Of a stretch of 11,669 bases of DNA, positions 1 through 11,669 are shown one piece after another. Origin of the DNA: a bacterium HR27 (GTDB taxonomy: Bacteria; Chloroflexota; Chloroflexia; Thermomicrobiales; Thermomicrobiaceae); assembly GCA_002898975.1 (NCBI GenBank), contig BEID01000013.1:1-11669 (forward strand). Reading direction: 5' to 3'. The position numbers were made by a program, and so were the translations under genes. Every line of letters begins with the position of its first letter. The first letter of the stretch is position 1. The notes under the pieces are model-generated. The model saw only the letters and a list, made by a program, of their open reading frames with translations. It ran no database searches and had not been told where the DNA came from.

Positions 1-16
1 GGAAGGAGTGCGTGCG

Positions 17-1255
17 GTGCTCGCGGCTCACCCCTTCTTCGTCTGGTTCCCCTGCCGGTCGTACGCGGAGTGGAATGCCCACGTCGCTCAGCTCGAACGC
101 ATGCTTTGCCGGCTCGTCCCAACGTTCCAGCGTCTCCTCTACCCGCGGTGGGCCAACGAGCCTGCCGACGCCAACAGCGTCGTCTTTCACCTCGGCGCCG
201 CCGTCATCGTCGTCGAGCACCCGAATCGGCTCGGATGGTACGTGCTCGATACGGATGAAGAACACTGGGTATTTGTCGGCTCCAAACACCTCCATCCCAT
301 GCCGGATCAGCCTGGCGGGCTCGTCTGGGTGTTGGAGGATGACACGCAGGAACTCCTTGTCTGTCCGCCTGGTGAGGAGAACAACCGCATCCCGCTCCGG
401 GACTCCTTCCCTGAGGGACTCGCGGCGTTCCTGGGGCACCTCCTTCCCGGTGCCACGCGGTTGCACATCCACGTTGGACCAGACGAGTTCCTCGGAGAAC
501 CAATCGCAAGCTGGCGCATTCCGTACCGCGAGCCGGACGTCGCCGCCAACCTCTCCTTCGTGGTGGAAATGGCGCCCTCAAGCGTGCACGGCCTCGTGGT
601 GACGGGCGAGATAACACCCGGAACGTCTGTGACCCTCCGTGGATCTATGTACCACTGGACCTCGTTCGATTGGGAGCAGCGTGTTTTTGCCCCAGCCCCC
701 GTGCTCGAGGCACGCGTCCTTGGCTTTGTGTGGTGTGACCATAACTGGACGCTCACCCCACCCCAGTGGGAAGCTGGATCCGTCGCGCTGCTTGCCCAAC
801 CCCTGGGAGACACAACACGGTTGACTGCCTTTGGCGACGTGGTCGCTGGCCCACTCGTAGCAGCGGCGTTGGATCCCGTGCTCGCCCGCGAACTCGACGC
901 CGAGCGTCGGTGGAGTGCCCCTGTGCTCCTCCCCGTGCTCTCGGGCGGAGGCGAGCCGCTCACTGGGCAAGCGAGCCACGCGGTTGCCTACCGCTCGGTC
1001 CCCGCCTACTGGCCGCACTGGACGCAGACGCTCGTGGAACTCTACCCACGGTACCTCGCCGGTGAGCTGACCATCGAGGGCGTTGCACGCGTCATCCGGG
1101 AGAAGCACCCCGAGTTCATGGGGGATGGCGGGTACCTCTTGAAGTGGCGGCACAGCCAGGCGAGGAAGGATCCCACGCTCGTCGAACAACTCCTCCCCAT
1201 GAAGTATCCGGACCGAGCCACCGCGATCCGTCGTGCGCGCCGGCAATATCGCTAA
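17..1255 (+). CDS. Hypothetical protein, about 412 aa
   Basis: I do not recognise this protein. The frame stays open to the window edge, but the perfect Shine-Dalgarno-like GGAAGGAG at 1-8 sits 8 nt before the GTG at 17, which I take as the start; an upstream GTG at 8 overlaps that site and is less likely. The protein appears soluble: no signal peptide or membrane segment is evident. The first 330 residues are rich in beta-type stretches with many Trp and His (for example GWYVLDTDEEHW and HLHPMP). The last 75 residues are basic and helical (VARVIREKHPEF, then KWRHSQARKDP, ending ATAIRRARRQYR), which could bind nucleic acid. Base use looks less GC-biased than in the replicase downstream, so it may have a different history. 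Function unknown; coding status is fairly certain from the long open frame. Confidence 0.72.
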   Translation: MLAAHPFFVWFPCRSYAEWNAHVAQLERMLCRLVPTFQRLLYPRWANEPADANSVVFHLGAAVIVVEHPNRLGWYVLDTDEEHWVFVGSKHLHPMPDQPGGLVWVLEDDTQELLVCPPGEENNRIPLRDSFPEGLAAFLGHLLPGATRLHIHVGPDEFLGEPIASWRIPYREPDVAANLSFVVEMAPSSVHGLVVTGEITPGTSVTLRGSMYHWTSFDWEQRVFAPAPVLEARVLGFVWCDHNWTLTPPQWEAGSVALLAQPLGDTTRLTAFGDVVAGPLVAAALDPVLARELDAERRWSAPVLLPVLSGGGEPLTGQASHAVAYRSVPAYWPHWTQTLVELYPRYLAGELTIEGVARVIREKHPEFMGDGGYLLKWRHSQARKDPTLVEQLLPMKYPDRATAIRRARRQYR

Positions 1256-1264
1256 TTGCGATAT
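1246..1264. repeat. Perfect 7-bp inverted repeat across the stop codon
   Basis: ATATCGC at 1246-1252 and GCGATAT at 1258-1264 are exact reverse complements separated by TAATT, which contains the TAA stop of the upstream gene. It could be a weak transcript-end hairpin or an operator. There is no T-tract after it, so I do not call it an intrinsic terminator. Confidence 0.4.
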
Positions 1265-1266
1265 CG

Positions 1267-1298
1267 GCGACATCCACGCGACATTGAACGCGACATTG
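1267..1298 (+). repeat. Three GCGACAT direct repeats, 11-12 bp apart
   Basis: GCGACAT begins at 1267, 1278 and 1290. The last two copies lie in a longer exact repeat, ACGCGACATTG at 1276-1286 and 1288-1298. Spacing of about one helical turn places all three on the same DNA face. They lie 57 bp upstream of the excisionase-like HTH gene at 1355. Inference: binding sites for that small HTH protein (such proteins often bind direct repeats) or an operator of the replication operon. Candidate promoter elements nearby (TTGAAC at 1284, TTGGCG at 1296) are too weak to assign. Confidence 0.5.
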
Positions 1299-1354
1299 GC
1301 GCGTCCGTACGCTCTCTTTAGTTCACGGATTGACGAGCGCAAGGAGGACGCGCC

Positions 1355-1588
1355 ATGCCCACTACTAATGTACGACCTGCTACTTTGTCGGTTGCCGAAG
1401 CCGCCCGCCTGCTCGGGGTGGGTCGCTCGCTCGCCTACGAATTGTCCCGGTGGCGCGGCGAACTCGCTCCCGGCGTTCCGGTCGTCCGGGTCGGCGGTCG
1501 TCGGTACCGGGTACCAACGAAAGCACTCGCGGAAGTCCTGGGGTTGAGAGAGGAAGAACTCTGGAAGCGGCTGGGGGTCGAACAATGA
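1355..1588 (+). CDS. Excisionase/AlpA-like small HTH DNA-binding protein
   Basis: A 77-aa protein with the MerR-type winged helix fold of the HTH_17/excisionase family. Residues 11-30 (LSVAEAARLLGVGRSLAYEL) form the helix-turn-helix and residues 42-63 (PVVRVGGRRYRVPTKALAEVL) the wing. Such proteins are recombination directionality factors or local regulators in phages and integrative elements. The start is well supported: AAGGAGG at 1341-1347 lies 7 nt before ATG 1355. It is the first gene of the replication operon, and its TGA overlaps the ATG of the next gene (ATGA at 1585-1588), implying translational coupling. Three direct repeats just upstream may be its target. Whether it is a true Xis or a regulator of replication cannot be told from sequence; the integrase is 8.9 kb away, which makes a regulatory role at least as likely. 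Confidence 0.85.
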   Translation: MPTTNVRPATLSVAEAARLLGVGRSLAYELSRWRGELAPGVPVVRVGGRRYRVPTKALAEVLGLREEELWKRLGVEQ

Positions 1589-1773
1589 CCGCGCCCCAGC
1601 CAACTTCCGGGTCGGCGGCACACCCGCAACGCCTTGCTGACAGCACCAGCATACGTTGCTGGTTTTGCGGCGCTTCGATCGAGCCGATCGAAGCCTGGGT
1701 CGACGGCGAGCAATGGTGGCGCTGCCCGCACTGCGGCGCACTGCTCGAACGTAAGGTAGGGGGTGCGCGGTGA
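1585..1773 (+). CDS. Small zinc-ribbon protein, 62 aa
   Basis: Residues 24-50 form a zinc ribbon with two knuckles, CWFC (Cys25, Cys28) and CPHC (Cys47, Cys50). It resembles treble-clef/rubredoxin-like metal sites found in many small DNA- or protein-binding factors. The first 20 residues are Ser/Thr/Pro/Gln-rich and probably disordered. I chose the ATG at 1585, which overlaps the preceding stop as ATGA, rather than a longer upstream frame whose extra N-terminus is an Arg-rich shadow. Its own stop at 1771-1773 overlaps the replicase start (GTGA at 1770-1773). This tight coupling on both sides suggests it works with the replicase, for example as a DNA-binding or recruitment factor; that role is inference. 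Confidence 0.75.
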   Translation: MTAPQPTSGSAAHPQRLADSTSIRCWFCGASIEPIEAWVDGEQWWRCPHCGALLERKVGGAR

Positions 1774-4700
1774 GCACCCCCCGCCCCACTGCACCTGTTT
1801 CCGCGACCACGCTCCGTGACGTGCTCTTCGAGTATACCCGCCGCGGCTGGCGGCCGCTCCTACTCGAGCCGGGCTCGAAGCAGACGTTCGAGCGCGGCTG
1901 GTCGAGCGACCCGCCCGACCTCGACGCGCTCCTCACCCGGCTGGACGGTCGTCTCTGGAACGTTGGTCTTCTCCTCGGCCCGATGAGCAACGGGCTGGTT
2001 GATCTCGACCTTGACTGTCCTGAAGCGCTTACCCTCGCCGACAGCTTCCTGCCACCGACGGATGCCGTCTTCGGTCGGTCGTCGAAACCCCGTGCGCACC
2101 GGCTCTACCGCTGCGACCCCGTGCCACCCTCGGCCGCCTATCGGGACGTTGATGGCACCATGCTCGTGGAACTCCGTGCCGACAGACGCCTCACCATGGT
2201 GCCGCCGAGCGTCCACCCCTCCGGCGAGCCGGTCACCTGGCACGCGGACGGTGCGCCAGCACAGGTCGACCCGGCGCGGCTGGCCGAGTCGGTGAGACGG
2301 CTGGCAGCTGCGGCACTCCTCGCCCGGCACTGGCCAACGCCAGGCGCCCGCCAGGAGGCGGCACTCGCGCTCGCTGGTGGTCTCGCCCGGCTCGGCTGGG
2401 GTGAGGACGCGATCGCCGCCTTCATCCTGGCCGTTGCCCAGGCCGCCCAGGACGAAGAAGCGGACAAGCGTGCAGCCGCCGGCCGCGACACCGTGGCCAA
2501 ACAGCGCGCAGGCGAACCGACGACCGGCTGGCAGCGCCTGAGCGAGCTCGTCGAGCCTCGTGTCGTCAAGCTGGTACGCCGGTGGCTCGAGCCGCCGGTG
2601 CGGCGGGTGGGTCCATATGCGTTTACGGACCGGGGCATCGTGTTCGTTCGCGAGTCCGCGCACGGCTTCGAAGAACGGCCCCTCGCAAATTTCACTGCGG
2701 AGATCGAAGACGTGCTCGTCGCGGACGACGGCGTCGAGACGCGCCGGTTCTTCGTCCTGCGCGGCCGCGTCGGCGAGCGTGAACTTCCACCCCTGCGCGT
2801 CCCGGCCGAGAAGTTCGCCAGCATGACTTGGGCCATGGAGTGGGCACCGCTCGCCGTCCTCCACGCTGGCCAGGCGACCCGCGACCGCGTGCGCGAGGCG
2901 ATCCAGCTGGCCTCCCTCGACGCGCCAGAACGTCGGGTGTTCACGCACAGCGGCTGGCGCCTGCTCGACGGCCGCTGGTGCTTCCTCCACGCCGGTGGCG
3001 CACTCGACGCGAACGGACCTGTCGAGGGTGTGCAGGTCGAGCTGCCCGATGAACTCGCCCGCTACACGGTCGCTGCCCCACCGGACCGTGCAACCCTCGA
3101 GGCGGCTGTCCGTTTCGTCTGGGATACCCTGCCGACCGTCACGCCAACCGCTTACGCCGCGCTGTTCGGTGCGCTGACCACCGCGCCGCTGACCACGCTC
3201 ATCGATGTCGACGCCTGCCTCTGGTGCGTTGGCCAGACCGGCCTCTTCAAGACCTCGGTCGTCAGTGTGCTCCTGAACCTCTACGGCGCGTTCCCCCCGA
3301 CCACGGCACCGGCCAGTTTCGAGTCCACCGCGAACTACTTGGAGAAAATTGCGTTTCTCGCGAAGGACCTGCCGCTGCTCGTCGACGACGTGCGTCCCCC
3401 GCAGACCGCTGCCGAAGCAGCGGAGTGGCGGCGGAAGATCGAGCGCCTCGTGCGCGCCGTCGGGAACCGTGCCGGTCGGGGCCGCATGGCCGGCGATACG
3501 AGCCTGCTCCACGGCACGCCGCCACGGAGTTTCGTGGTCGTCACCGCGGAAGATGACCCCGCGGGGAGCTCGACCGTCGGCAGGACGCTGATCGTCCGGT
3601 TCGCTCCCGGCACGGTCGATACCGGCACGCTCGCCGCCTGGCAACGCGATCCGACACCGCTCCAGCTCGCCGGTGCGGGGTACCTGCAGTTCCTCGCGAC
3701 GCTCCTCGACCAGCGCGGACCAGCGGCCTTCCGGGCGCTGCGGGATCAGCAGCGCATCCCCCAACTCCCCGCGGGGGTGCACCCGCGGCTTCCGCAGACG
3801 CTCCGGCACCTCCTCACCGGCTGGACCCTCTTCGCGTGGTTCGCGACGCAGTCCGGTGCCGTCCCCGAGGAGGAGGCCGAGCAGCGGCTCGCTGCCGTCG
3901 CAGAGCAGCTCGTGCACCACGCCGTCGAGACCGCGGCGGCCGTCCGTGCGGAGCGCCCGAGCCACCGGTTCGTGCTGGCGCTCGGTGATCTCCTGGCGAG
4001 CCGTCGCGCCCACCTCGACGGTCGCGCGGGAACCGCACCACCCGACGCTGAAGCGCTGGGATGGGTGCGTGGTGAGGATGGTACCCTGTACCCACGCGGG
4101 GAACGGATCGGCTGGGCCGACGACGTCGGACTCTACCTCATCCCCGCTGCCGCGCACGCCCAGGTGCGCAAGCTCCTCCACGAGCGGGGGGAGACCTTTG
4201 CTGTCTCCAGTCGCACGCTGCTCGAGGCTTTGGCGCGAGACCGGTACCTTTTGCCGTCGAACCGGTCGGATAACCGTCGTACGCTCGTCATCAAGGTTGA
4301 AGGACAGGCCGTGACCGTTTGGCCGCTCGACCGCGCCGCCGTGGCGGCCGCATGGACCGGTGCGCACCCCGATCCGGACGATCCCACAACCCCACCAGTT
4401 ACCCCAGTTACCCCAGTTACCCCAAACCCCGACAGTCAGACAGACCGCGAAAACGTTCCCGGCCCCGCAGCACGGACGGATACACTCCAGACCCCCTCTC
4501 CTCATATTTGGGGTAACTCGGGTAACTCGGGTAACCAACCGCATCGGGACGCTGATTTTGCGGTTACCCCAAATACGGCGATCGGCGACGTTCGGGTAAC
4601 CGTTGGGGTAACCGAGTCAAACCCCCGTCCGAACGACGCGCACCGGTTACCCCAACGGTTACCCCTTCTTCCCGCACCGACGCCTTGGGGTAACCGGAAG

Positions 4701-6533
4701 GACGGTGCACATCCGCATGCCGACGGGGCTACTTCGGAGCAGGTTACCCCAGTTACCCCAGTTACCCCAAATACACCAAGAGGGGGGTATAGCGTTTCCG
4801 CTGGCATCCCAGCCATCCCCTTCACCGTCCTGACCAGCGCCAGCGACGGCCACCTGCTCGACCGGCTGGGGAAGCTCGTGGCGCTCGACCTCGAGACGGT
4901 CGGCCTCGACCCCTACCAGGGGCGGATCCGCCTGGTCGCCATTTCTGACGGCACCACCACCCTCCTCCTCGACGCCGCGCCACTCGGTGCGCAGCTGCCA
5001 CAGCTCCTCCGCCGCGCCTTCGCCGACCGCACCGTCGTCCTCCACCATGGCGCCTTCGACCTGGGCTGGCTACTGGTCCACGGCCTGCCGCTCCCCCACC
5101 AGTGCCGGGACACCATGCTCGAGGCGCTGCTCCTCGATGCCGGCCAGCGGCTGCACGACCGCCGGGCGTTCGCCTTGGCGACGCTCGCTGCCGACCACCT
5201 GGGGCTGGTGCTCGACAAGACGCTCCAGACGAGCGACTGGTCCGGCGAACTCAGCGACGCCCAGCTCGCCTATGCGGCCCGCGACGCCTGGGTGACGGTC
5301 ACGCTCGCCGAGCAGCTCACTCCGCAGCTCGCCGAGCGCGGCCTTACGGCGGTCGCCGACGTCGAAAACCGGGCGCTCCCGTTCGTGGCCTGGCTGCGCA
5401 CGACGGGGGTGCCGTGGGATGCTGCCGCCTGGGATACCGCCGTTGCGGCCGCCGAGCAGGCGAAGATCGAGGCCGAGGCTGCGCTCCGCCAGCTCCTGCC
5501 GCCGGACGGCCTCTTCGGTGCCACCGTGAACCTCGACTCCCCCAAGCAGCTCAAGCAGGCCTTGGCCGCGCTCGGGTTGGACCTCCCCGACACCGCGGAC
5601 GAGACGCTGTCGCTTGCGGACCACCCCGTGGCGGCGGCCCTGCGGCGCTACCGGGCGGCCGCCAAGCTCGTCTCCTCCTACGGCCGGGACTGGGCAACGC
5701 GGCACCCAGTGACCGGCCGGGTCCACCCGGACTGGCAGCAGCTGGGGGCGGCGACCGGCCGCATGGCCTGCCGCGACCCGAACGTGCAGCAACTCCCGCG
5801 CGAGGGTGGCTTCCGCCGAGCGGTCGCCGCACCACCCGGCCGCGTGCTCGTCAAAGCCGACTACTCGCAGATCGAGCTTCGGGTGGCGGCCGAACTCTCC
5901 GGTGACCCGCAGCTCCGCGCGGCCTTCCAGCGCGGCGAGGACGTGCACACGGCGACGGCCCGGCTGGTGCTGGGGGTGGCCGAGCCGACGAAAGCCGACC
6001 GGCAGAAGGCGAAGGCCCTGAACTTCGGACTCCTGTACGGGATGAGCGCCGAAGGCTTCCGGCGGCAGGCGGCACGCGACTACGGCGTCCTGCTCACGCC
6101 GGAGGACGCGCAGCGGCTGCGGGAGCGCTTCTTCGCGGTGTACCGGGGGCTGCGCGCCTGGCAGCGGCAGGCCCGGGGGGACGAGCCGACCGACGTGCGG
6201 ACGCGTTTGGGCCGGCTGCGGGTGGGGGTGGACAAGCTGACGACGAAGCTCAACACGCCGGTGCAGGGGACCGCGGCTGATGGGCTGAAGTGCGCCTTGG
6301 CCTTGCTCTGGGAGCAGCGGCAGCGGCTCGGCTCGGCGGTGCCGGTCGTCGTCTGCCACGACGAGATCGTGTTCGAGTGTGACACTGCGGAGGCCGAGCA
6401 CGTGGCCGCGGTGCTCGAGCGCCTCATGGTGCGCGGCATGCAGCGGGTGCTGCGGAAGATACCGGTCGCGGTGGAGGTGGCGGTGTGCCGGGACTGGAGC
6501 GGGACGCCACTCGTTGGGGGAGACGCACGGTGA
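1770..6533 (+). CDS. Primase-polymerase / AAA+ ATPase / family A DNA polymerase fusion (single-chain replicase)
   Basis: A 1587-aa fusion. Residues ~15-180 are a Prim-Pol (archaeo-eukaryotic primase) domain: catalytic acidic motif GLVDLDLD (Asp78, Asp80, Asp82), SKPRAHRLY (His110), and VELRADRRLTMVPPSVHP (Glu134). Residues ~280-860 are a DUF927/AAA+-like ATPase, probably a helicase: FTHSGWR near 391, Walker A GQTGLFKTS (488-496, Lys494), Walker B LPLLVDD (Asp539, Asp540), candidate arginine finger Arg605. Residues ~865-1005 are a low-complexity linker carrying DNA repeats. Residues 1030-1190 are a DnaQ-type 3'-5' exonuclease with all acidic residues (Asp1040/Glu1042, Asp1097, YAARD Tyr1168/Asp1172). 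Residues 1200-1580 are a family A polymerase: TGRMACRDPNVQQLP, motif A KADYSQIELR (Asp1364), motif B Arg1411/Lys1415/Phe1419/Tyr1423, motif C CHDEIVFE (Asp1531). No 5'-nuclease domain is present. The GTG start overlaps the previous stop. The same plan, primase-helicase plus proofreading PolA, is known in apicoplast Prex and hot-spring viral polyproteins, but I cannot check identity with those. Confidence 0.95.
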   Translation: MSTPRPTAPVSATTLRDVLFEYTRRGWRPLLLEPGSKQTFERGWSSDPPDLDALLTRLDGRLWNVGLLLGPMSNGLVDLDLDCPEALTLADSFLPPTDAVFGRSSKPRAHRLYRCDPVPPSAAYRDVDGTMLVELRADRRLTMVPPSVHPSGEPVTWHADGAPAQVDPARLAESVRRLAAAALLARHWPTPGARQEAALALAGGLARLGWGEDAIAAFILAVAQAAQDEEADKRAAAGRDTVAKQRAGEPTTGWQRLSELVEPRVVKLVRRWLEPPVRRVGPYAFTDRGIVFVRESAHGFEERPLANFTAEIEDVLVADDGVETRRFFVLRGRVGERELPPLRVPAEKFASMTWAMEWAPLAVLHAGQATRDRVREAIQLASLDAPERRVFTHSGWRLLDGRWCFLHAGGALDANGPVEGVQVELPDELARYTVAAPPDRATLEAAVRFVWDTLPTVTPTAYAALFGALTTAPLTTLIDVDACLWCVGQTGLFKTSVVSVLLNLYGAFPPTTAPASFESTANYLEKIAFLAKDLPLLVDDVRPPQTAAEAAEWRRKIERLVRAVGNRAGRGRMAGDTSLLHGTPPRSFVVVTAEDDPAGSSTVGRTLIVRFAPGTVDTGTLAAWQRDPTPLQLAGAGYLQFLATLLDQRGPAAFRALRDQQRIPQLPAGVHPRLPQTLRHLLTGWTLFAWFATQSGAVPEEEAEQRLAAVAEQLVHHAVETAAAVRAERPSHRFVLALGDLLASRRAHLDGRAGTAPPDAEALGWVRGEDGTLYPRGERIGWADDVGLYLIPAAAHAQVRKLLHERGETFAVSSRTLLEALARDRYLLPSNRSDNRRTLVIKVEGQAVTVWPLDRAAVAAAWTGAHPDPDDPTTPPVTPVTPVTPNPDSQTDRENVPGPAARTDTLQTPSPHIWGNSGNSGNQPHRDADFAVTPNTAIGDVRVTVGVTESNPRPNDAHRLPQRLPLLPAPTPWGNRKDGAHPHADGATSEQVTPVTPVTPNTPRGGYSVSAGIPAIPFTVLTSASDGHLLDRLGKLVALDLETVGLDPYQGRIRLVAISDGTTTLLLDAAPLGAQLPQLLRRAFADRTVVLHHGAFDLGWLLVHGLPLPHQCRDTMLEALLLDAGQRLHDRRAFALATLAADHLGLVLDKTLQTSDWSGELSDAQLAYAARDAWVTVTLAEQLTPQLAERGLTAVADVENRALPFVAWLRTTGVPWDAAAWDTAVAAAEQAKIEAEAALRQLLPPDGLFGATVNLDSPKQLKQALAALGLDLPDTADETLSLADHPVAAALRRYRAAAKLVSSYGRDWATRHPVTGRVHPDWQQLGAATGRMACRDPNVQQLPREGGFRRAVAAPPGRVLVKADYSQIELRVAAELSGDPQLRAAFQRGEDVHTATARLVLGVAEPTKADRQKAKALNFGLLYGMSAEGFRRQAARDYGVLLTPEDAQRLRERFFAVYRGLRAWQRQARGDEPTDVRTRLGRLRVGVDKLTTKLNTPVQGTAADGLKCALALLWEQRQRLGSAVPVVVCHDEIVFECDTAEAEHVAAVLERLMVRGMQRVLRKIPVAVEVAVCRDWSGTPLVGGDAR
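4397..4427 (+). repeat. Iteron triplet A (plus orientation)
   Basis: Three head-to-tail AGTTACCCC units at an exact 9-bp period, ending in CAAAC. They are read as Val-Thr-Pro repeats in the replicase frame. This is the left boundary of the array. Confidence 0.85.
4398..4768. repeat. Array of 15 GTTACCC iterons inside the replicase gene (candidate origin)
   Basis: Fifteen copies of GTTACCC occur in about 370 bp. Plus-strand copies start at 4398, 4407, 4416, 4563, 4646, 4658, 4743, 4752 and 4761. Minus-strand copies (GGGTAAC) start at 4511, 4520, 4529, 4594, 4606 and 4688. Twelve of the 15 extend to GTTACCCC, and most isolated copies are preceded by G, giving palindromic GGTTACC. Three triplets have an exact 9-bp period. 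I saw no further copies elsewhere in the window. The array lies in the linker between the ATPase and exonuclease domains (residues ~877-1000). Iterons inside a replication-protein gene are known from the lambda origin in gene O. The call as an origin or protein-binding array is inference; the repeats themselves are directly visible. Confidence 0.9.
4504..4538 (-). repeat. Iteron triplet B (minus orientation)
   Basis: Three units at 9-bp period in the opposite orientation to triplet A. On the minus strand it reads GGTTACCCG, AGTTACCCG, AGTTACCCC followed by AAATATG. On the plus strand it encodes WGNSGNSGN, a peptide unrelated to triplet A although the DNA unit is the same. Confidence 0.85.
4742..4774 (+). 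repeat. Iteron triplet C (plus orientation)
   Basis: Three GTTACCCCA units at 9-bp period followed by AATAC. It is almost identical to triplet A, in the same orientation and codon phase, about 345 bp away, and forms the right boundary of the array. Confidence 0.85.
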
Positions 6534-6865
6534 CAGCCAGTCGGTGCCCCGACGACCGCATCAGCGAAAAAGCCTTCAGCCAACTCGTGGTCGACCTTGC
6601 GCATCTCCTCGGCTGGTCGGTCTACCGCACCTGGCTCTCCGTGCGCTCGCCGGCCGGCTTCCCCGACCTCGTGCTCGCCAAACCGGGCCGGCCGCTGATC
6701 CTGGCCGAACTCAAGAGCGAACGCGGCCGGCTCTCGCCGGCGCAGGAACAGTGGCTCGCCGTGCTCCGCCAGGTGCCGGGGATCGCGGTCTTCGTCTGGC
6801 GGCCGAGCGACTGGGACGCGATCGTCGCCGTGTTGCAGGGGGTGGGTGACGGTGCGGCTCCGTGA
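6530..6865 (+). CDS. VRR-NUC domain nuclease, 111 aa
   Basis: A compact VRR-NUC family nuclease of the PD-(D/E)XK superfamily, the type seen as stand-alone phage nucleases and in FAN1. The core is visible: GFPDLVLAKPGRPLILAELK supplies Asp46, Glu60 and Lys62 (PD-x13-ExK), followed by Gln72 in LSPAQEQWL and the terminal strand IAVFVWRPSDW. Stand-alone members are thought to act as Holliday-junction or structure-specific nucleases, which would fit resolving or trimming replication products. I prefer GTG 6530, which overlaps the replicase TGA (GTGA), with purine-rich GGGGGAG 7-8 nt upstream; the longer frame from 6485 would add a 15-residue overlap without a ribosome site. The gene is coupled to the replicase, and its 3' end overlaps the next start by about 20 nt. 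Activity is inferred from family motifs. Confidence 0.88.
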   Translation: MTASRCPDDRISEKAFSQLVVDLAHLLGWSVYRTWLSVRSPAGFPDLVLAKPGRPLILAELKSERGRLSPAQEQWLAVLRQVPGIAVFVWRPSDWDAIVAVLQGVGDGAAP

Positions 6866-7217
6866 CCTCGAACGCGCGATCAACGAAGCAGCGTCGGCGC
6901 AGCTCCGCTGGTACCTCACCTTCGCCGGCCGGCGACCGGACGACCAGGACCTCGAGCGCCTGTGGGCGCTCCAGACCCAGCTCGCACACCTGTTCGGCGA
7001 GAAGCGGCGACTCCTGGCCGAGCGGACGGTGGACCGGCCCGAGCTGGTGCCGGTGGCATGGCTGCTGGGGCGGCCGTGGGTCGCACCGCCCGACCCCCAG
7101 CTCCGGCAGGGGGACGGGACGGAGCGGTTGCGGCAACTCCGGCCGGTGGTCGAGACGAAAGGACGGGAGGTGAACGGTGGTGAGCGTGAACGGATGGACG
7201 GAAACAGTCGCAAATGA
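6846..7217 (+). CDS. Hypothetical protein, about 123 aa
   Basis: Not recognised. The N-terminal 60 residues are strongly helical and charged (RLRDLERAINEAASAQLRW, then DLERLWALQTQLAHLFGEKRRLLAE), with a coiled-coil-like heptad feel. A Pro-rich hinge, LGRPWVAPPDPQL, and a hydrophilic Glu/Arg-rich tail follow. GTG 6846 is taken as the start; GTG 6852 is also possible with the GGGGGT upstream. The gene overlaps the nuclease gene by 20 nt. It overlaps the next gene by 41 nt, an unusually long overlap which hints that either this tail is dispensable or the next gene starts slightly later. Its place between nuclease and HTH gene suggests an accessory role in DNA metabolism, but nothing in the sequence proves it. 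Confidence 0.65.
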   Translation: MTVRLRDLERAINEAASAQLRWYLTFAGRRPDDQDLERLWALQTQLAHLFGEKRRLLAERTVDRPELVPVAWLLGRPWVAPPDPQLRQGDGTERLRQLRPVVETKGREVNGGERERMDGNSRK

Positions 7218-7608
7218 CGCCCTCGCCGCACTCCGGCCGCGGCAGCGGCGCTTCCTCGAGGCCTACCTGAGCGGCCTGTCGCTGGTGGAGGCTGCACGCG
7301 TCTCCGGCGTCTCCGAGTCGACGGCGCGGCGCTGGCTCCGCGACCCAGCTGTCCGCCAGGCCGTGCGCCAGGCGCAGCGCGAAATCGTCGGTGAGGCCGT
7401 GCAGCGGCTGGCGCACTTGTCCGCGCAGGCGGTCGCGACACTCGCGGACATCTTGACACACGAGCCGAACAGCGCGGTCCGCTTGCGCGCGGTCGAGACG
7501 GTCCTGGCGAACCTGGTCCGTTTGCTTGAGGTCTTCGACCTGCACGAGCGGATCGAGGCGCTCGAGCAGGCCGTGGTATCCTTCCGCGGAGGTGCGAACC
7601 GTGCGTAG
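7177..7608 (+). CDS. phBC6A51-type HTH protein (terminase small subunit-like)
   Basis: A 143-aa protein. After a short leader, residues 19-34 (LRPRQRRFLEAYLSGL) and the helix-turn-helix at ~35-55 (SLVEAARVSGVSESTARRWL) match the layout of phBC6A51-like and small-terminase-like phage proteins, followed by DPAVRQAVRQAQREIV. The remainder is a long helical oligomerisation region with a coiled-coil C-terminus (DLHERIEALEQAVV). Small terminases bind the packaging start site, but proteins of this type also occur without a large terminase in mobile elements, where their role is unclear. No large terminase is in the window. GTG 7177 is served by GGGAGG at 7165-7170; GTG 7180 is an alternative. Family call fairly confident, packaging role not. 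Confidence 0.8.
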   Translation: MVSVNGWTETVANDALAALRPRQRRFLEAYLSGLSLVEAARVSGVSESTARRWLRDPAVRQAVRQAQREIVGEAVQRLAHLSAQAVATLADILTHEPNSAVRLRAVETVLANLVRLLEVFDLHERIEALEQAVVSFRGGANRA

Positions 7609-7828
7609 GCTCCTTCTGCGTCTCGAGCAGCTCGAACGGCAGCTTCCGCCGCAGGATGTCCGCGTCGTCTTTGTTGAGTTGGCTCCGGACGGGCAGCTCG
7701 TCGTCTGGCCGACAGGTGAGCCGTACCGACCGGTCGGCGAGGTGGTCTCCGTCCGCCTCGAGTGGGACGACGAAGCACTCCTACAGGCGCAGGAACAGAA
7801 AGGGTCGGACACGGCGCACGCTGGTTGA
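7601..7828 (+). CDS. Hypothetical protein, 75 aa
   Basis: Not recognised. A helical, Leu/Arg/Gln-rich N-terminus (RRLLLRLEQLERQL) precedes a beta-type segment (VRVVFVELAPDGQLVVWP, then VVSVRLEWDDE). The start is GTG 7601, with GCGGAGG at 7586-7592 and 8 nt spacing, and it overlaps the end of the HTH gene by 8 nt. A longer frame from 7526 lacks a ribosome site and would add a Ser/Arg-rich shadow sequence. It is the last gene of the rightward operon, and a 9-bp hairpin spans its stop codon. Tight coupling suggests a partner of the preceding HTH protein. Confidence 0.65.
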   Translation: MRRLLLRLEQLERQLPPQDVRVVFVELAPDGQLVVWPTGEPYRPVGEVVSVRLEWDDEALLQAQEQKGSDTAHAG

Positions 7829-7839
7829 GTCGTGCGCCG
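7812..7839 (+). terminator. Hairpin across the operon's last stop codon
   Basis: CGGCGCACG (7812-7820) and CGTGCGCCG (7831-7839) are perfect 9-bp reverse complements with a 10-nt loop holding the TGA at 7826-7828. It is GC-rich and correctly placed for the end of the rightward operon, but no T-run follows, so it may be a factor-dependent terminator or an RNA-stabilising hairpin. Confidence 0.45.
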
Positions 7840-7928
7840 AGCATGAGCGCGGCGACCGGGTAGGCGGTCACGATCTTCCGCGCGGGCGGTCCTGAGACCC
7901 GCGCCCCACCTCGTTTCCGCTCCGTTCG

Positions 7929-7978
7929 AAAATCCGCGAATTTTGCCAAAAAACCGATTTTTCTTCCCGAAAACGGTT
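7929..7978. repeat. Cluster of nested AT-rich inverted repeats
   Basis: Three overlapping inverted repeats: AAAAT (7929-7933) with ATTTT (7940-7944); TTTTG (7941-7945) with CAAAA (7947-7951); and a 10-bp two-part stem, AACCG + TTTTC (7952-7956, 7959-7963) with GAAAA + CGGTT (7969-7978), loop TTCCC. The T-runs make the last hairpin the most terminator-like structure in this gap on either strand. Confidence 0.5.
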
Positions 7979-7983
7979 GGAGC

Positions 7984-7998
7984 GTTGATAACATCAAC
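7984..7998. promoter_or_regulatory. Operator-like palindrome GTTGAT-aac-ATCAAC
   Basis: Exact 6-bp inverted repeat with a 3-bp spacer, next to the AT-rich cluster. The size and form suit a dimeric HTH regulator, such as the XRE protein at 9993, but there is no gene start beside it, so its role is unclear. Confidence 0.3.
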
Positions 7999-8049
7999 TC
8001 TCTCGCCAGGCGCCGACGCTCGCCGGGCATGGTGGGGACCGGAGGAGGA

Positions 8050-8080
8050 GGGATCAAGGTGACGATGTAACCTTGATCCC
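8050..8080. repeat. Perfect 11-bp hairpin
   Basis: GGGATCAAGGT (8050-8060) and ACCTTGATCCC (8070-8080) are exact reverse complements with a 9-nt loop. Neither strand has a T-tract after the stem, so it is not a classical intrinsic terminator. It may be an operator, a transcript-processing hairpin or part of a bidirectional stop. Confidence 0.5.
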
Positions 8081-8168
8081 CTCGGATCGTGGCAACCGCA
8101 GCACCTACCTCGCCGCTCGCCTCAAGCGCGACCGCACCTGCACGCGCGGGTACTGGCGGAGACACGAA

Positions 8169-8202
8169 GACCGGCCGCCGGGATCACTCCCAGCGGCCGG
8201 TC
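8169..8202 (-). terminator. Strong hairpin ending the leftward operon
   Basis: GACCGGCCGC (8169-8178) pairs perfectly with GCGGCCGGTC (8193-8202). Inside it GGGA (8180-8183) pairs with TCCC (8188-8191), leaving a 4-nt loop and one C-A mismatch. It begins 17 nt after the stop codon of the leftward operon's last gene. The T content after the stem on the minus strand is modest (TCTTCGTGTCT), so efficiency is uncertain. Confidence 0.65.
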
Positions 8203-8219
8203 CCATCTCGGTTGCAGCG

Positions 8220-8561
8220 TCACGCGACGGCTTCGATCGCCTGCTCGAGCGCGCGCAGCTGCTCGGCATCGTCGCCGTAGAATACACGATCGGACTGAAA
8301 CAGCGCTGCGCACGTCGCCGCCAACTCGCGCCGAACAGCAGGCGGAGCGAGAAGCGGAAGCAAGAAGAGTCGTGCGTCCGGATACCCGGCGCTACGGAAG
8401 TAGTCATACGCCTCGAGCAAGCGGAGCACGAGTGCCAGGTCCGGGTCGAGCACTTCGACGTAGGCCGCGAGCGTCTCGACCGTGACCTTCGCGAGCTGCG
8501 GGTCGATCTGGATGACCGTCGCCACACAGTCACCCCATACGGCTGCAAGCCGGTCTGTCAT
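8220..8561 (-). CDS. Hypothetical protein, 113 aa
   Basis: Not recognised. Largely helical, Leu/Ala-rich and acidic, with no membrane segment: an N-terminal helix MTDRLAAVWGDCVATVIQ, a Pro-hinged middle LFLLPLLAPPAVRRELAATC, and a C-terminal helix DDAEQLRALEQAIEAVA. I chose ATG 8561, which overlaps the TGA of the upstream gene (ATGA at 8561-8558), rather than a longer frame reaching 8900 that would run through that gene. It is the last gene of the leftward operon and is followed within 20 nt by a strong hairpin. Its composition suggests a small protein-protein adaptor, but no function can be assigned. Confidence 0.65.
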   Translation of the reverse strand: MTDRLAAVWGDCVATVIQIDPQLAKVTVETLAAYVEVLDPDLALVLRLLEAYDYFRSAGYPDARLFLLPLLAPPAVRRELAATCAALFQSDRVFYGDDAEQLRALEQAIEAVA

Positions 8562-8806
8562 CGCTGGTCCCCTTCCGTATCGCGCTCGACGGCGGTCAGG
8601 CGCAGGAACCGCTCGAGCGCCTTCGGACTCGCCACGCTGGCGAACGTGTTGACGAAGGTCGCCCGTACCACAGCAGGCTGGTACGCGAGCAGGACCTGGT
8701 AGTCGGCGACGAACTTGGCGGCCTGCTCGTCGTTTGCGGCGGCGTTGAGCAACGTCGCCAAGTTGCGGGCGGCTTGTTCGGCTGCGGTGATGTCCCAGGT
8801 CGTCAT
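8558..8806 (-). CDS. Hypothetical protein, 82 aa
   Basis: Not recognised. An all-helical-looking acidic protein (ITAAEQAARNLATLLNAAAN, then DEQAAKFVADYQVLLAY) with a charged C-terminus RDTEGDQR. ATG 8806 has GGGAGGA 6 nt upstream on the minus strand, so the longer frame to 8848 is rejected. Its stop overlaps the next start, so the two small proteins are probably made in fixed ratio and may form a complex. It sits 90 nt downstream of the OB-fold gene in the same direction. Confidence 0.68.
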   Translation of the reverse strand: MTTWDITAAEQAARNLATLLNAAANDEQAAKFVADYQVLLAYQPAVVRATFVNTFASVASPKALERFLRLTAVERDTEGDQR

Positions 8807-8896
8807 CGTCAGTCCTCCCTTCGCAGCTGGACACGGTTTCTGAAACAACGCCGATGCCGTGTGGCGGTCCGCGGGTCATGGCAGCGTTCCTTCCCC

Positions 8897-9289
8897 TCAC
8901 TGCTCGAGCCAGGCCAGGAGCTGCTCGGCGTAGGCGACGAGTTCCGACGCCGGCACGGCAGTGCCGTGCAGGACGTCGGCCGCCGCACGCAAGGCGCTCA
9001 TGCGGAGCATCCGCCGTTCCCGCTCACCAGCGGGTCCTGGTGCCGGTGCGGGTGTCGCTGGCGCTGGTGCGGTGTCGGCGATCGTGACGTCGACGATGCG
9101 CGGGTACTCGCTCGACCCGTTCACGGTGACGACGTAGGTCTGGCCGGGGAGGAGCGCCTCGGCCAGTGCCGCGTCCCAGCAGAAGAGCGCCTGCTTCTCA
9201 CCAGCGACCTTGACCCGCCAAAAGCGCTTCCCGTTCTGGCTGGTGCGCTCTTCGACCTCGCTGACAGTGACCGTCCGCGTCTCCGCCAT
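8897..9289 (-). CDS. OB-fold protein, SSB-like, 130 aa
   Basis: Residues 5-72 look like a small OB-fold: VTVSEVEERTSQNGKRFWRV, KQALFCWDAALAEALLPG, TYVVTVNGSSEYPRIVDVTI, with alternating beta strands and exposed aromatics (Phe23, Trp24, Phe36, Trp38, Tyr52). An Ala/Pro-rich linker (~73-87) then leads to a basic helical C-terminus (~88-130) ending in LLAWLEQ. Such proteins bind single-stranded DNA in phage-type replication modules. It lacks the acidic DDIPF-like tail of cellular SSB, so it probably does not recruit partners in the cellular way. ATG 9289 is preceded by GGAGGG. It lies 30 nt after the SWIM-protein gene and shares its transcript. Role as the element's single-strand binding protein is inference from fold and context. 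Confidence 0.65.
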   Translation of the reverse strand: MAETRTVTVSEVEERTSQNGKRFWRVKVAGEKQALFCWDAALAEALLPGQTYVVTVNGSSEYPRIVDVTIADTAPAPATPAPAPGPAGERERRMLRMSALRAAADVLHGTAVPASELVAYAEQLLAWLEQ

Positions 9290-9319
9290 GGCTGTCCCTC
9301 CGTTCCCGTTCGCCGTCCC

Positions 9320-9856
9320 TCACCAGAGTGCCGACACCGTCCCGTCACCCTCGCGGACGAAGCGCCCGTCGTAGGTCGCCTCAGCCTCGGCTTCGCAGGC
9401 CAGGCAGCGGCCGTCCGCGTCCAGCTCACCGCCGCAGGTGTCGCAGCGCTCGTCGAGCGGCTGGAAGCGGCCGCGTGGACCGGTCGGGTCCACGAGGAGG
9501 CAGCGCCGGCAGCGTTGGCCGGTGAGGTCTGTGTCCGACTCCTCGACCGCACCACAGCGGTCGCACTGGTAGCGGCGGCGGGGCTTTGCGCCCCGGCCGC
9601 CGTCCTGCTGGCGCTCGCGGACGAGCTGTGCCGCGATCAGGTGCTTGCAAGGGATCCCGAGCTTCTTCGCCCGGTACTGGTGATCCGGGCAGGTGCAGGA
9701 CTCCTGCGCCAGGTTCACGAGATACGCGTAGCCTTCGCCGTTGAGCACGCAGTAGACGCCGTCCTGCCCGTAGACCGGTGCGACCTTGCCCTGCTCGACC
9801 AGCGCGACCGCCTTCTCGTACCGCTCGGCCAGTCCCTTGATCTGCTGCGTCGTCAT
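9320..9856 (-). CDS. SWIM zinc-finger protein with two zinc ribbons, 178 aa
   Basis: Residues ~10-80 carry a SWIM zinc finger: Cys54-x-Cys56, then Cys70-x-His72 (CTCPDHQYRAKKLGIPCKHL), preceded by the usual beta strands (VYCVLNGEGYAYLVNLA). Two four-cysteine ribbons follow: Cys98/Cys101/Cys116/Cys119 and Cys138/Cys141/Cys151/Cys154. SWIM domains bind DNA or proteins and occur with helicases, transposases and recombination factors. The start is ATG 9856, with AAAGGAG 10 nt upstream and a near-consensus promoter about 47 nt further on; a longer frame reaching 10087 would cross that promoter. First gene of the leftward operon. It is non-enzymatic as far as visible; likely a DNA-binding or scaffold partner of the replication proteins (inference). 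Confidence 0.85.
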   Translation of the reverse strand: MTTQQIKGLAERYEKAVALVEQGKVAPVYGQDGVYCVLNGEGYAYLVNLAQESCTCPDHQYRAKKLGIPCKHLIAAQLVRERQQDGGRGAKPRRRYQCDRCGAVEESDTDLTGQRCRRCLLVDPTGPRGRFQPLDERCDTCGGELDADGRCLACEAEAEATYDGRFVREGDGTVSALW

Positions 9857-9902
9857 CACCGCTCGGCTCCTTTCGGCTGCGACTCTTTCACTCTCTGTGG
9901 CA

Positions 9903-9931
9903 AGTATAGCGTATCGTGTGACGCCTGTCAA
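9903..9931 (-). promoter_or_regulatory. Near-consensus sigma70 promoter of the leftward operon
   Basis: On the minus strand TTGACA (9931-9926) and TATACT (9908-9903) are separated by exactly 17 bp. The -35 is perfect and the -10 matches five of six. Transcription would begin near 9896 and enter the SWIM gene about 40 nt later. This is the best promoter in the window. Confidence 0.85.
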
Positions 9932-9953
9932 GGGTCGTTTTGCGGTTGACCCT
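9931..9953. promoter_or_regulatory. Operator-like inverted repeat AGGGTC-N11-GACCCT
   Basis: Six-bp arms at 9931-9936 and 9948-9953 lie between the divergent promoters and touch the -35 box of the leftward one. The XRE-family gene starts 40 bp away, so autoregulation plus control of the leftward operon is a natural reading (inference). Confidence 0.4.
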
Positions 9954-9958
9954 GAGCG

Positions 9959-9967
9959 TGCTAGACT
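9959..9967 (+). promoter_or_regulatory. Possible extended -10 promoter for the XRE-integrase pair
   Basis: TGCTAGACT gives a TGn extended -10 with TAGACT at 9962-9967. A weak -35, TTGCGG, lies at 9940-9945 (16-bp spacer). The start codon at 9993 is 26 bp downstream, so the leader would be short. Weaker than the opposing promoter. Confidence 0.4.
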
Positions 9968-9992
9968 CGTCTCGGAAAGGAGTGGTGGAGCG

Positions 9993-10232
9993 ATGGAGGT
10001 GAAACCGCTTCGCGCCTGGCGGTACGCCCGAGCGCTCGGACTCCGCGAGCTGAGCCGGATCACGGGCCTCTCGCCGCAGACGATCACGGCACTCGAGCAC
10101 GGTCGCAGTCGCGGCTATCCGGCGACCTGGCGCAAGCTGGCGAGCGCGCTCGGAGTCGAGCCGGAGCAGATCCTCGAGTACCGCCGTGCCGTTGGTCTCG
10201 ATGCGAGCGAACCGGAGTCATCCGATGCCTAA
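9993..10232 (+). CDS. XRE/Cro-family HTH regulator, 79 aa
   Basis: A single Cro/C1-type helix-turn-helix domain fills residues 6-63. The HTH itself is at about 17-37 (LRELSRITGLSPQTITALEHG), then GYPATWRKLASALGVEPEQIL, the usual end of the fold. Such proteins repress or balance opposing operons in phages and integrative elements. ATG 9993 has GGAAAGGAG at 9974-9982. A longer frame from 9786 runs backwards through the promoter region and is not used. The gene is divergent from the SWIM/OB-fold operon and 51 bp upstream of the integrase, so it probably controls both; the inverted repeat at 9931-9953 is a candidate operator. Confidence 0.88.
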   Translation: MEVKPLRAWRYARALGLRELSRITGLSPQTITALEHGRSRGYPATWRKLASALGVEPEQILEYRRAVGLDASEPESSDA

Positions 10233-10283
10233 CCGCTCGCTCCGGCGGCGACCCGGCTCAGCAGGAGTGAAAGGAGTGCGTGC

Positions 10284-11501
10284 ATGCCAACCGTACCCGA
10301 GACGGACAACGGACGCAAGCGGCGCCGCCGCGGCAGCGGCGAAGGCACCGTCTTCTTCGACCAGCGCCGCGGCAAGTGGGTGGCGCAGCTCTCCGTGCCG
10401 GATCCGGTGCGGGGGCGGCTGCGGCGCATCTCCCGGATCGCCGACACGCAGCGGGAAGCACTCAAGCTCCTCCAGAAGCTGCGCGAGGAACACGAGCGGG
10501 GCGTGCTGGCGCACGGCCGGCCGCCGACCCTCGGGCAGTTCCTCCACCAGTGGCTCGAAGGCCGCCGGCCGAGTCTCCGACCCCGCACGCTCGACACGTA
10601 CGAAACGGTGATCCGCAGCCGGATCGTGCCGGTGCTCGGCAGCCTCACGCTGGACAAGGTGACGCCGGCAGCGCTCCAAGCCGCCTACAGCCAGCTCCTC
10701 GCCCGCGGCCTCGCCCCGCGTTCTGTCGTCCACGCCCACCGACTCCTCCACCGCGCCTTCGAGGACGCCGTGAAATGGGGCCTGCTCGGCCGCAACCCCT
10801 GTGACCTGGTTGACCCGCCGCACGCACCGCGACCCACGATCCAGCCGTTTTCGCTCGAGGAAGTCCGCGTGCTCCTCGCTGCCTGTGCGGACGACCCGAT
10901 CGGCCCACTGGTGACCGTGGCGGTCCTCACCGGGATGCGGCTCGGAGAACTCCTCGGCCTGCAGTGGGGTGACATCGATTGGGAACGTGGGGAACTCTCC
11001 GTCGCCCGCGCCATCCAACGCAGCAAGGGGCGAGGGCTCATCACGGTTGAGCCGAAGACGGCTACCTCGCGCCGGCGGGTGCCACTCCCGCCGCAGGCCC
11101 TTGAGGCGCTGCGCGTCCAGCGTCGCCGGCAGCTCGAGCAACGCCTGGCCGCGGGACCGGCCTGGGCCGACGGCGACTGGGTCTTCACCACGAGCCTCGG
11201 CACCCCGATCAGCCCGTCGGACGCACACCACGCCTATCAGCGCCTGCTCGAGCGGGCCTGGTTGCCGCGCCGGCGCTTCCACGACCTCCGGCACACCACG
11301 GCGACCTTGCTCCTAACCGACGGCGTGCATCCGAAGGTGGTGGCGAGCCTCTTGGGCCACAGCACGATCCAACTCACGCTCGACACCTACAGCCACGTCA
11401 CGCCTGGCCTGGCCCACGAGGCAGCCGGACGGTTGGGCGCGCTGATTGCTAACTCGATTGCTAACTCGAATCGCGCGGCACCGGAGGACGACGGTGACTG
11501 A
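10284..11501 (+). CDS. int: Tyrosine recombinase (phage-type integrase), 405 aa
   Basis: A site-specific recombinase of normal length. Residues ~18-60 resemble an AP2-type arm-binding domain (GTVFFDQRRGKWVAQLSV). Residues ~81-165 form the SAM-like core-binding domain (TLGQFLHQWLEG, RTLDTYETVI). Residues ~188-385 are catalytic with a full active set: Arg219 (TGMRLGELLGLQW), Lys258, His333 and Arg336 (FHDLRH), His359 (LLGHS), Tyr369 (DTYSHV). ATG 10284 has AAAGGAG nearby upstream. It ends 36 bp from the 3' end of tRNA-Tyr, the classic arrangement for an integrase beside its attachment site. No frameshift or missing residue is visible, so it should be active. The last codons contain a 12-bp tandem duplication giving IANSIANS. 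Confidence 0.95.
   Translation: MPTVPETDNGRKRRRRGSGEGTVFFDQRRGKWVAQLSVPDPVRGRLRRISRIADTQREALKLLQKLREEHERGVLAHGRPPTLGQFLHQWLEGRRPSLRPRTLDTYETVIRSRIVPVLGSLTLDKVTPAALQAAYSQLLARGLAPRSVVHAHRLLHRAFEDAVKWGLLGRNPCDLVDPPHAPRPTIQPFSLEEVRVLLAACADDPIGPLVTVAVLTGMRLGELLGLQWGDIDWERGELSVARAIQRSKGRGLITVEPKTATSRRRVPLPPQALEALRVQRRRQLEQRLAAGPAWADGDWVFTTSLGTPISPSDAHHAYQRLLERAWLPRRRFHDLRHTTATLLLTDGVHPKVVASLLGHSTIQLTLDTYSHVTPGLAHEAAGRLGALIANSIANSNRAAPEDDGD
11445..11468 (+). repeat. 12-bp tandem duplication in the integrase 3' end
   Basis: ATTGCTAACTCG occurs twice in a row (11445-11456, 11457-11468), in frame, encoding IANS twice just before the stop. It lies outside the catalytic domain. Confidence 0.8.
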
Positions 11502-11560
11502 CTCTGTCGTAGCCGCATACGAATGCGTGTTTTCGGGTGGGGAGAGAGGGATTCGAACCC
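11502..11560. other. Probable attachment-site region (attR side)
   Basis: The integrase stop is at 11501 and the tRNA-Tyr 3' end at 11538. Tyrosine integrases commonly use the T-arm/3' end of a tRNA gene and restore it on insertion, so the crossover core probably lies within about 11538-11560. No second copy of the tRNA 3' end was found in the window, so the opposite att site must lie further left. Exact core unknown. Confidence 0.5.
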
Positions 11561-11622
11561 CCGACGCGCATCAGCGCACCGATTTTACAGACCGGCCCCT
11601 TGAACCGCTCGGGCATCTCCCC
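11538..11622 (-). tRNA. tRNA-Tyr (anticodon GUA)
   Basis: An 85-nt class II tRNA on the minus strand. Acceptor GGGGAGA pairs with TCTCCCC. The D-arm has CCC/GGG, and the anticodon stem CCGGT/ATCGG has loop CTGTAAA, giving GTA. A long variable arm (GCGC-tgat-GCGC) is as expected for bacterial tRNA-Tyr, and the T-arm is GGGGG-TTCGAAT-CCCTC. The discriminator base is A and CCA is not encoded. It appears intact, so integration did not destroy it. It is the likely host landmark at the element's right end. Confidence 0.95.
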
Positions 11623-11669
11623 ACAAAAGCGACCCGGAGGTGTCCCCCTCACCCCTGGGCCGCGAAGAA

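Follow-up and report, generated by a model that had tools for sequence, protein, structure and literature searches.

Analysis of an 11,669-base stretch of the genome of bacterium HR27 (Thermomicrobiaceae; assembly GCA_002898975.1, contig BEID01000013.1, positions 1 to 11,669 of the forward strand), hereafter the window, suggests that the replicase gene of a small integrative element carries a replication origin within its own coding sequence. Fifteen copies of the heptamer GTTACCC lie between the helicase and family-A polymerase portions of the encoded protein, and we propose that they are initiator-binding iterons, the most likely binder being the C-terminal domain of the helicase; we put the probability of this interpretation at roughly three in four. 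That the replicase gene contains such an iteron origin had been suggested by an earlier model-generated note on the same DNA (the sequence-only reading), and it is the best-supported interpretation of the array.

All exact matches of GTTACCC in the window, nine forward and six reverse, fall within 4398-4768 (Table 1), and when the entire window was dinucleotide-shuffled 200 times, the word occurred 0.49 times on average and three times at most. The recount thus reproduces what the sequence-only reading had reported, namely 15 copies in about 370 bp, in both orientations, with chance expectation well below one. Three triplets have an exact 9-bp period (4398/4407/4416, 4511/4520/4529 and 4743/4752/4761) and the pairs are spaced at 12 bp, a near-helical spacing like that of the multiple short repeats beside initiator genes in iteron origins. 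The domain positions agree with the claimed placement between the ATPase and polymerase halves: homology of the helicase stops at 4379, and the iterons follow directly 3′ of its C-terminal part, from 4398. The open reading frame (ORF) offers six orientation/phase classes, of which the copies occupy four, with seven and two in the forward classes and four and two in the reverse ones; they are translated as VTP, RLP, GNS and GVT. Because the peptide varies while the word stays constant, it is the DNA that is constrained. One reverse register would read TAA, and the array makes no use of it, as it must not if the frame is to stay open. Clusters of GTTACCC elsewhere in the host, which the sequence-only reading had named as a point that would tell against it, are absent from the host genome sequence (2.07 Mb in 419 contigs, 62.6% complete, so that part of the genome is unseen). 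In that sequence, all six matches of the tandem form GTTACCCNNGTTACCC lie in the array, and GGGGTAAC is matched 30 times, with 12 of the matches inside the array and the other 18 occurring singly on 18 contigs; the same pattern read backwards, as a control, has 13.

Comparison with close relatives indicates that the layout of the array is largely retained while its word changes, in line with the expectation that the repeats would persist as the peptide diverges. In two members of the same genus, G003 (63% identical to the window replicase over residues 11-1581) and G005, helicase and polymerase are adjacent ORFs, the latter holding in its 5′ portion an array with the word GTTACA. The order in G005 is that of the window minus the first triplet (three reverse copies, one forward, a reverse pair and a forward pair each at 12 bp, one reverse, and three forward at 9 bp); G003 shows this shortened order, likewise lacking the first triplet, with two of the three leading reverse copies and without the single forward one. 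Twelve window copies have counterparts; in each relative these keep motif positions 1-5 in 57 of 60 cases, the flanks agree in 99/199 and 105/203, and position 6 differs in every copy (11 C to A, one C to G). We read this parallel one-base change, from the alignments, as a specificity shift of a common binder. A helix in the C-terminal part of the helicase that by eye has T, M or A in P0001-P0004 and R in G003, G005 and P0121-P0123 is a possible lead. In G013, of the same family, 13 GGGACA cores in all six registers occupy the same junction and DUF3854 replaces Prim-Pol; the array therefore tracks the helicase rather than the primase. The G003 element (locus L038) is probably a complete integrated relative, given that 55-base direct repeats (52 bases identical; 10223-10277 and 19418-19472), one of them within a tRNA-SeC gene, lie 9.2 kb apart and enclose an integrase, a primase-helicase and a polymerase. 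The simple notion that the iteron word follows helicase relatedness was dropped, as GGTTACA also adjoins a helicase that is only 32% identical to that of the window (G383, L196). The contig of the G005 array also carries nine copies of AACTCAC in a single orientation (L041, 7094-7405).

With respect to the identity of the helicase, structure comparison assigns the window protein the fold of SaPIbov1 Rep and Cch, the initiators of a Staphylococcus aureus pathogenicity island (SaPI) and of the staphylococcal cassette chromosome (SCC), across both the core and the C-terminal part; the latter is read as a winged helix from the strands and helices of the predicted model. At the sequence level the signal is faint: a helicase profile retrieved 64 matches in the PDB, including weak ones to Cch and Rep (5dgk, E 0.008; 8tch, E 0.014) that unrelated proteins outscore, and a single-protein search of the PDB gave one match, which is irrelevant. 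Of 26 proteins homologous to the helicase region, 7 carry the Pfam family DUF927 (PF06048). Three full-length homologues of the replicase (1,581-1,587 aa, 75-89% identity) occur on other contigs, which argues against an assembly artefact.

Arrays recur, with differing words, in the more distant loci most similar to this system. We ranked 105 polymerase loci, six of them too short upstream, by how closely they resemble the window or P0006; at or above 400 bits, a cut chosen post hoc, 10 of 13 have at least seven copies within 800 bp upstream, compared with none of 14 controls taken as chromosomal-type polA (maximum 5; the open frame of one, L030, is just 684 aa) and none of the remaining 72 (L059, L067 and L075 reach six). 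The array lies in a long open frame in L053 (DUF3854, DUF927 below cut-off, PolA), L054 (Prim-Pol, D5_N, DUF5906, PolA; seven AGGTTAA and six ACGTCAC), L192 (CHC2 zinc finger, a middle part without domain assignment, PolA) and L193 (from G187, with one in-frame stop in the polymerase part of its fused replicase), and L050 and L052 have arrays and frames open at the 5′ end. It is lacking from L062 (a single frame with Prim-Pol, AAA_25 ATPase and PolA; best word four copies), L051 (AAA_25 proteins encoded by frames of their own), L204 (weak Toprim, PolA), and L042 and L166, which are outside the set of typed ATPases. In the few typed cases, the array accompanies MCM-like or D5-type ATPases, not AAA_25. 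A second pair of words differing by one base is found here, CGTCCGC (13 copies in L192, 11 in L050) and CGTCAGC (11 in L052, eight in L193); L192 and L193 each hold one copy of the other group's word, and polymerases are 46-58% identical between the groups. At the protein level, the linkers of P0012 and P0013 have no obvious repeated peptide by eye. In scans of whole loci, L060, L063, L066, L077 and L100 have six to eight copies away from the 800-base upstream stretch and the tested helicase junctions, and L029, the sole control with at least six copies, carries eight AGCTATC in both orientations at 1238-1461, beside polA and outside the upstream stretch.

From the side of the helicase, a survey of 301 genomes of the phylum found PF06048 in 9, at 15 loci in all, and at 12 of these loci (several being near-copies within one genome, and the cluster of L135 lying away from the junction) a bidirectional 7-mer cluster exceeds the best of five shuffles by at least two copies. 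At helicase junctions we required at least seven copies of one 7-mer, in both orientations, between -100 and +700 bases from the helicase end, in 28 loci (27 from genomes of the phylum, including the window, and one viral), one of them too short. This holds for 18 of 27 loci and, elsewhere in those loci, for 4 of 255 windows of 800 bases (Fisher 2.6e-18; the loci are partly non-independent and the threshold was chosen post hoc); three of the four belong to L211 and L212, whose arrays are situated at a greater distance 3′ from the DUF927 match, and one to L221. The arrays of L216 and L217 straddle the helicase stop, and those of L197, L200 and L201 sit in the gene's own 3′ open frame. Scans of viral contigs gave no relative of the window family and no match to P0012, and with L053 matched its own contig alone.

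Given these observations, we propose that the MCM-like helicase moiety of the fusion protein would bind the iterons, most likely via its C-terminal domain, assemble on them, and open and unwind the DNA, so that replication would start at the array; Prim-Pol and the family-A polymerase, joined to the helicase in a polypeptide that would work uncleaved, could then prime and extend at the opened site. The origin DNA, kept open as coding sequence, would double as a hinge between helicase and polymerase.

Several observations weigh against this scheme. PF06048 itself gives no match to the window protein at E 1e-3. No clear AT-rich unwinding element was found in the array region, where GC content is 0.61 in the array, 0.70 in the flanks and at its lowest 0.52 among the 60-base pieces listed; and cumulative GC skew, which the sequence-only reading had offered as a check, did not bear it out, the minimum in the window being at 5928, away from the array. 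The change between GTTACCC and GTTACA is probably a single evolutionary event, G003 and G005 being close kin. Nine of the 27 helicase loci have fewer than seven copies (L042, L043, L199, L211, L212, L213, L214, L219 and L221), although in L211 and L212 arrays exist further 3′ than the place tested and L043 is borderline, with six copies in one scan and four in another. Repeat-free homologues, which had been named in advance as damaging, thus do exist, at polymerase loci L051, L042 and L166 and fusion L062 as well as helicase loci L199, L213, L214, L219 and L221; yet where a window-like helicase is fused or adjacent to a PolA gene, the array is present in five of five (window, G003, G005, G013 and L053). 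Of 12 distant helicases from named records of plasmids and gut phages, none reaches seven copies (two reach six), and 9 of 122 other windows of those records do; hence some dense 7-mer clusters have a different meaning. Finally, the 77-aa helix-turn-helix (HTH) protein encoded upstream of the replicase may be the binder in the window element.

That protein was among the candidates named for binding tests by the sequence-only reading. Homologues lie in the regions of G003 (68%) and G013 (48%), and none was found in the stretches examined of the array-bearing L053, L054 and L193, for which reason the helicase C-terminal domain is the better candidate. The same facts bear on an unlikely alternative, that the array is a set of operators through which the HTH_17 protein, whose gene lies just upstream, or another regulator controls transcription of the polymerase half; besides the lack of an HTH homologue in those three stretches, some helicase genes that are followed by arrays (e.g., L195, L215 and L218) have no match to a family-A polymerase in the stretch examined. 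A partition, packaging (pac) or transfer site is improbable as well. The window does encode a protein resembling the terminase small subunit (TerS), which would fit packaging, but no homologue of it was found in the examined stretches of the array-bearing G003, G013 and G005, on which ground a packaging site was rejected; the array position follows the helicase end, and the nine ORFs scanned matched neither ParA/ParB nor relaxase families. We give very little credence to the idea that a stem or cruciform formed by the opposed triplets matters rather than the 7-mer itself. Such triplets could pair, and the origin of pRN1 is a stem-loop just 3′ of the primase-helicase gene (PMC4234260), but the 2-base spacers are incompletely complementary (CA vs TC), and the conservation of positions 1-5 includes isolated copies. 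Expansion of a low-complexity coding linker by slippage, which the simple-repeat look of VTPVTPVTP and GNSGNSGN might evoke, is scarcely tenable in view of the four registers, the two orientations, the positions kept in relatives, and the similar arrays that no single gene-strand open frame spans (L195, L196, L215, L218 and L220).

Table 1. Features of the window (positions in its own numbering)
Feature	Positions	Strand	Remarks
HTH_17 protein, 77 aa	1355..1588	+	PF12728; alternative candidate binder or excisionase-like
Replicase ORF, 1,587 codons	1770..6533	+	Prim-Pol, helicase, iteron linker, family-A exonuclease/polymerase (ORF list, Pfam)
Prim-Pol domain	1830..2264	+	Residues 21-165; PF09250, E 1.4e-11
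Helicase region	2577..4376	+	C-terminal part ~4014-4364, read as winged helix
Iteron array, 15 GTTACCC	4398..4768	both	Order +++ --- + -- ++ - +++
First forward triplet	4398..4423	+	Without counterpart in G003/G005
Reverse triplet	4510..4535	-	Exact GTTACCC matches
Last forward triplet	4743..4768	+	Three GTTACA copies at this location in both G003 and G005
3′-5′ exonuclease domain	4872..5330	+	PF01612
DNA polymerase A domain	5514..6500	+	PF00476, E 7.6e-68
TerS-like protein	7177..7608		PHROG 51, E 3.4e-9; Pfam Terminase_2 just below cut-off
Tyrosine integrase	10284..11501	+	PF00589, E 4.6e-26
tRNA-Tyr	11535..11623	-	Possible attachment site adjoining the integrase, by analogy with G003

The gene complement, with integrase, tRNA-Tyr, replicase and TerS-like protein on a contig that ends at the left, is possibly that of a phage satellite resembling the phage-inducible chromosomal islands. 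No capsid family is among the matches of the nine window ORFs scanned, and no second copy of the attachment sequence was found at 12 bases within the window. Repeat clusters of other kinds were seen in plasmids. The 12,210-bp plasmid pAL20118a of Cyanobacterium aponinum (L226) carries ATCAGAT 30 times, counting both strands; the copies fall in 9 of the 13 one-kilobase bins and extend into the N-terminal part of a polymerase gene directly 3′ of a DnaB-like helicase gene. Streptomyces linear plasmids have dense bidirectional clusters of CGGAACC, CGACACG and CCGCGAC (L138 602-1256, L139 1417-2076 and L141 1699-2156), mostly within annotated coding genes near ssb and off the helicase junction. In the linear plasmid L142 and other Rhodococcus plasmid records, distant kin of the window helicase are annotated as telomere-binding protein, the next gene in L142 being annotated as terminal protein.

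A broader hypothesis, on which we consider the odds to be even, is that translated origins are a general design of mobile-element primase-helicase-polymerase fusions, at least those with MCM-like and D5-type ATPases: the iteron origin would be maintained as the coding linker that joins helicase to polymerase, origin, initiator and polymerase would move as one gene, and specificity would shift by parallel substitution of all iterons and of the initiator's DNA-binding domain. If so, origins of uncultured elements could be read directly from their replicase genes, the linker revealing the iteron; sister elements with GTTACC and GTTACA would provide natural pairs of initiator domain and iteron for studying the evolution of origin specificity; and origin, helicase and polymerase could be coupled through one polypeptide. 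Intragenic origins (lambda O), iteron origins beside such helicases and the DUF927-PolA polyprotein are already known. Among the open-licence matches listed, titles and abstract openings describe neither iterons translated as a helicase-polymerase linker nor their recurrence with differing words and a parallel one-base change.

Among known systems, a similar protein architecture is seen in the OS3173 (TOSV) PolA polyprotein of Aquificae viruses, in which a DUF927 region is fused to a proofreading family-A polymerase in 1,606 aa (PMC7689252); the window likewise fuses its helicase to the PolA exonuclease/polymerase. Prim-Pol, present in the window ORF, is not named in the available text of that paper, where the phrase "origin of replication" has 0 occurrences, and our hypothesis offers a direct test on these polyproteins. 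The gene of pRN1 orf904, a primase, helicase and winged-helix protein, also has its origin just downstream; in contrast to the window, that origin is a stem-loop past the stop codon and the helicase belongs to superfamily 3 (PMC4234260).

The lambda-O arrangement invoked by the sequence-only reading holds for the intragenic position of the iterons and for nothing further; no homology is claimed, and membership in that type was rejected. Lambda O is not known to be a helicase, whereas the proposed initiator of the window has a helicase fold. The lambda origin, within gene O, has four iterons, each an 18-bp inverted repeat, and an AT-rich region (PMC6022878), a symmetry absent from the 7-bp words of the window.

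The Rep/Cch proteins and origins of SaPI and SCC elements (SaPIbov1 Rep and the SaPI origins, and SCCmec Cch and Cch2 with the putative SCCmec origin) share with the window the helicase fold and iterons directly 3′ of the helicase. Iterons differ from one SaPI to another. The C-terminal domain of SaPI Rep recognizes iterons immediately downstream of rep, and the family-A polymerase CCPol, with MP, preferentially primes at the iteron origin (PMC7581432); furthermore, C-terminal winged-helix domains of primase-helicase proteins have been proposed as origin recognizers (PMC5862659). Pattern 2 SCCs encode the family-A polymerase in a gene of its own (PMC7581432), whereas in the window it is part of the same ORF, which opens with Prim-Pol and runs through a translated candidate origin of 15 copies in both orientations into the polymerase. 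With these differences, the SaPI/SCC Rep and origin, rather than lambda O, are the nearest mechanistic precedent for the window replicase.
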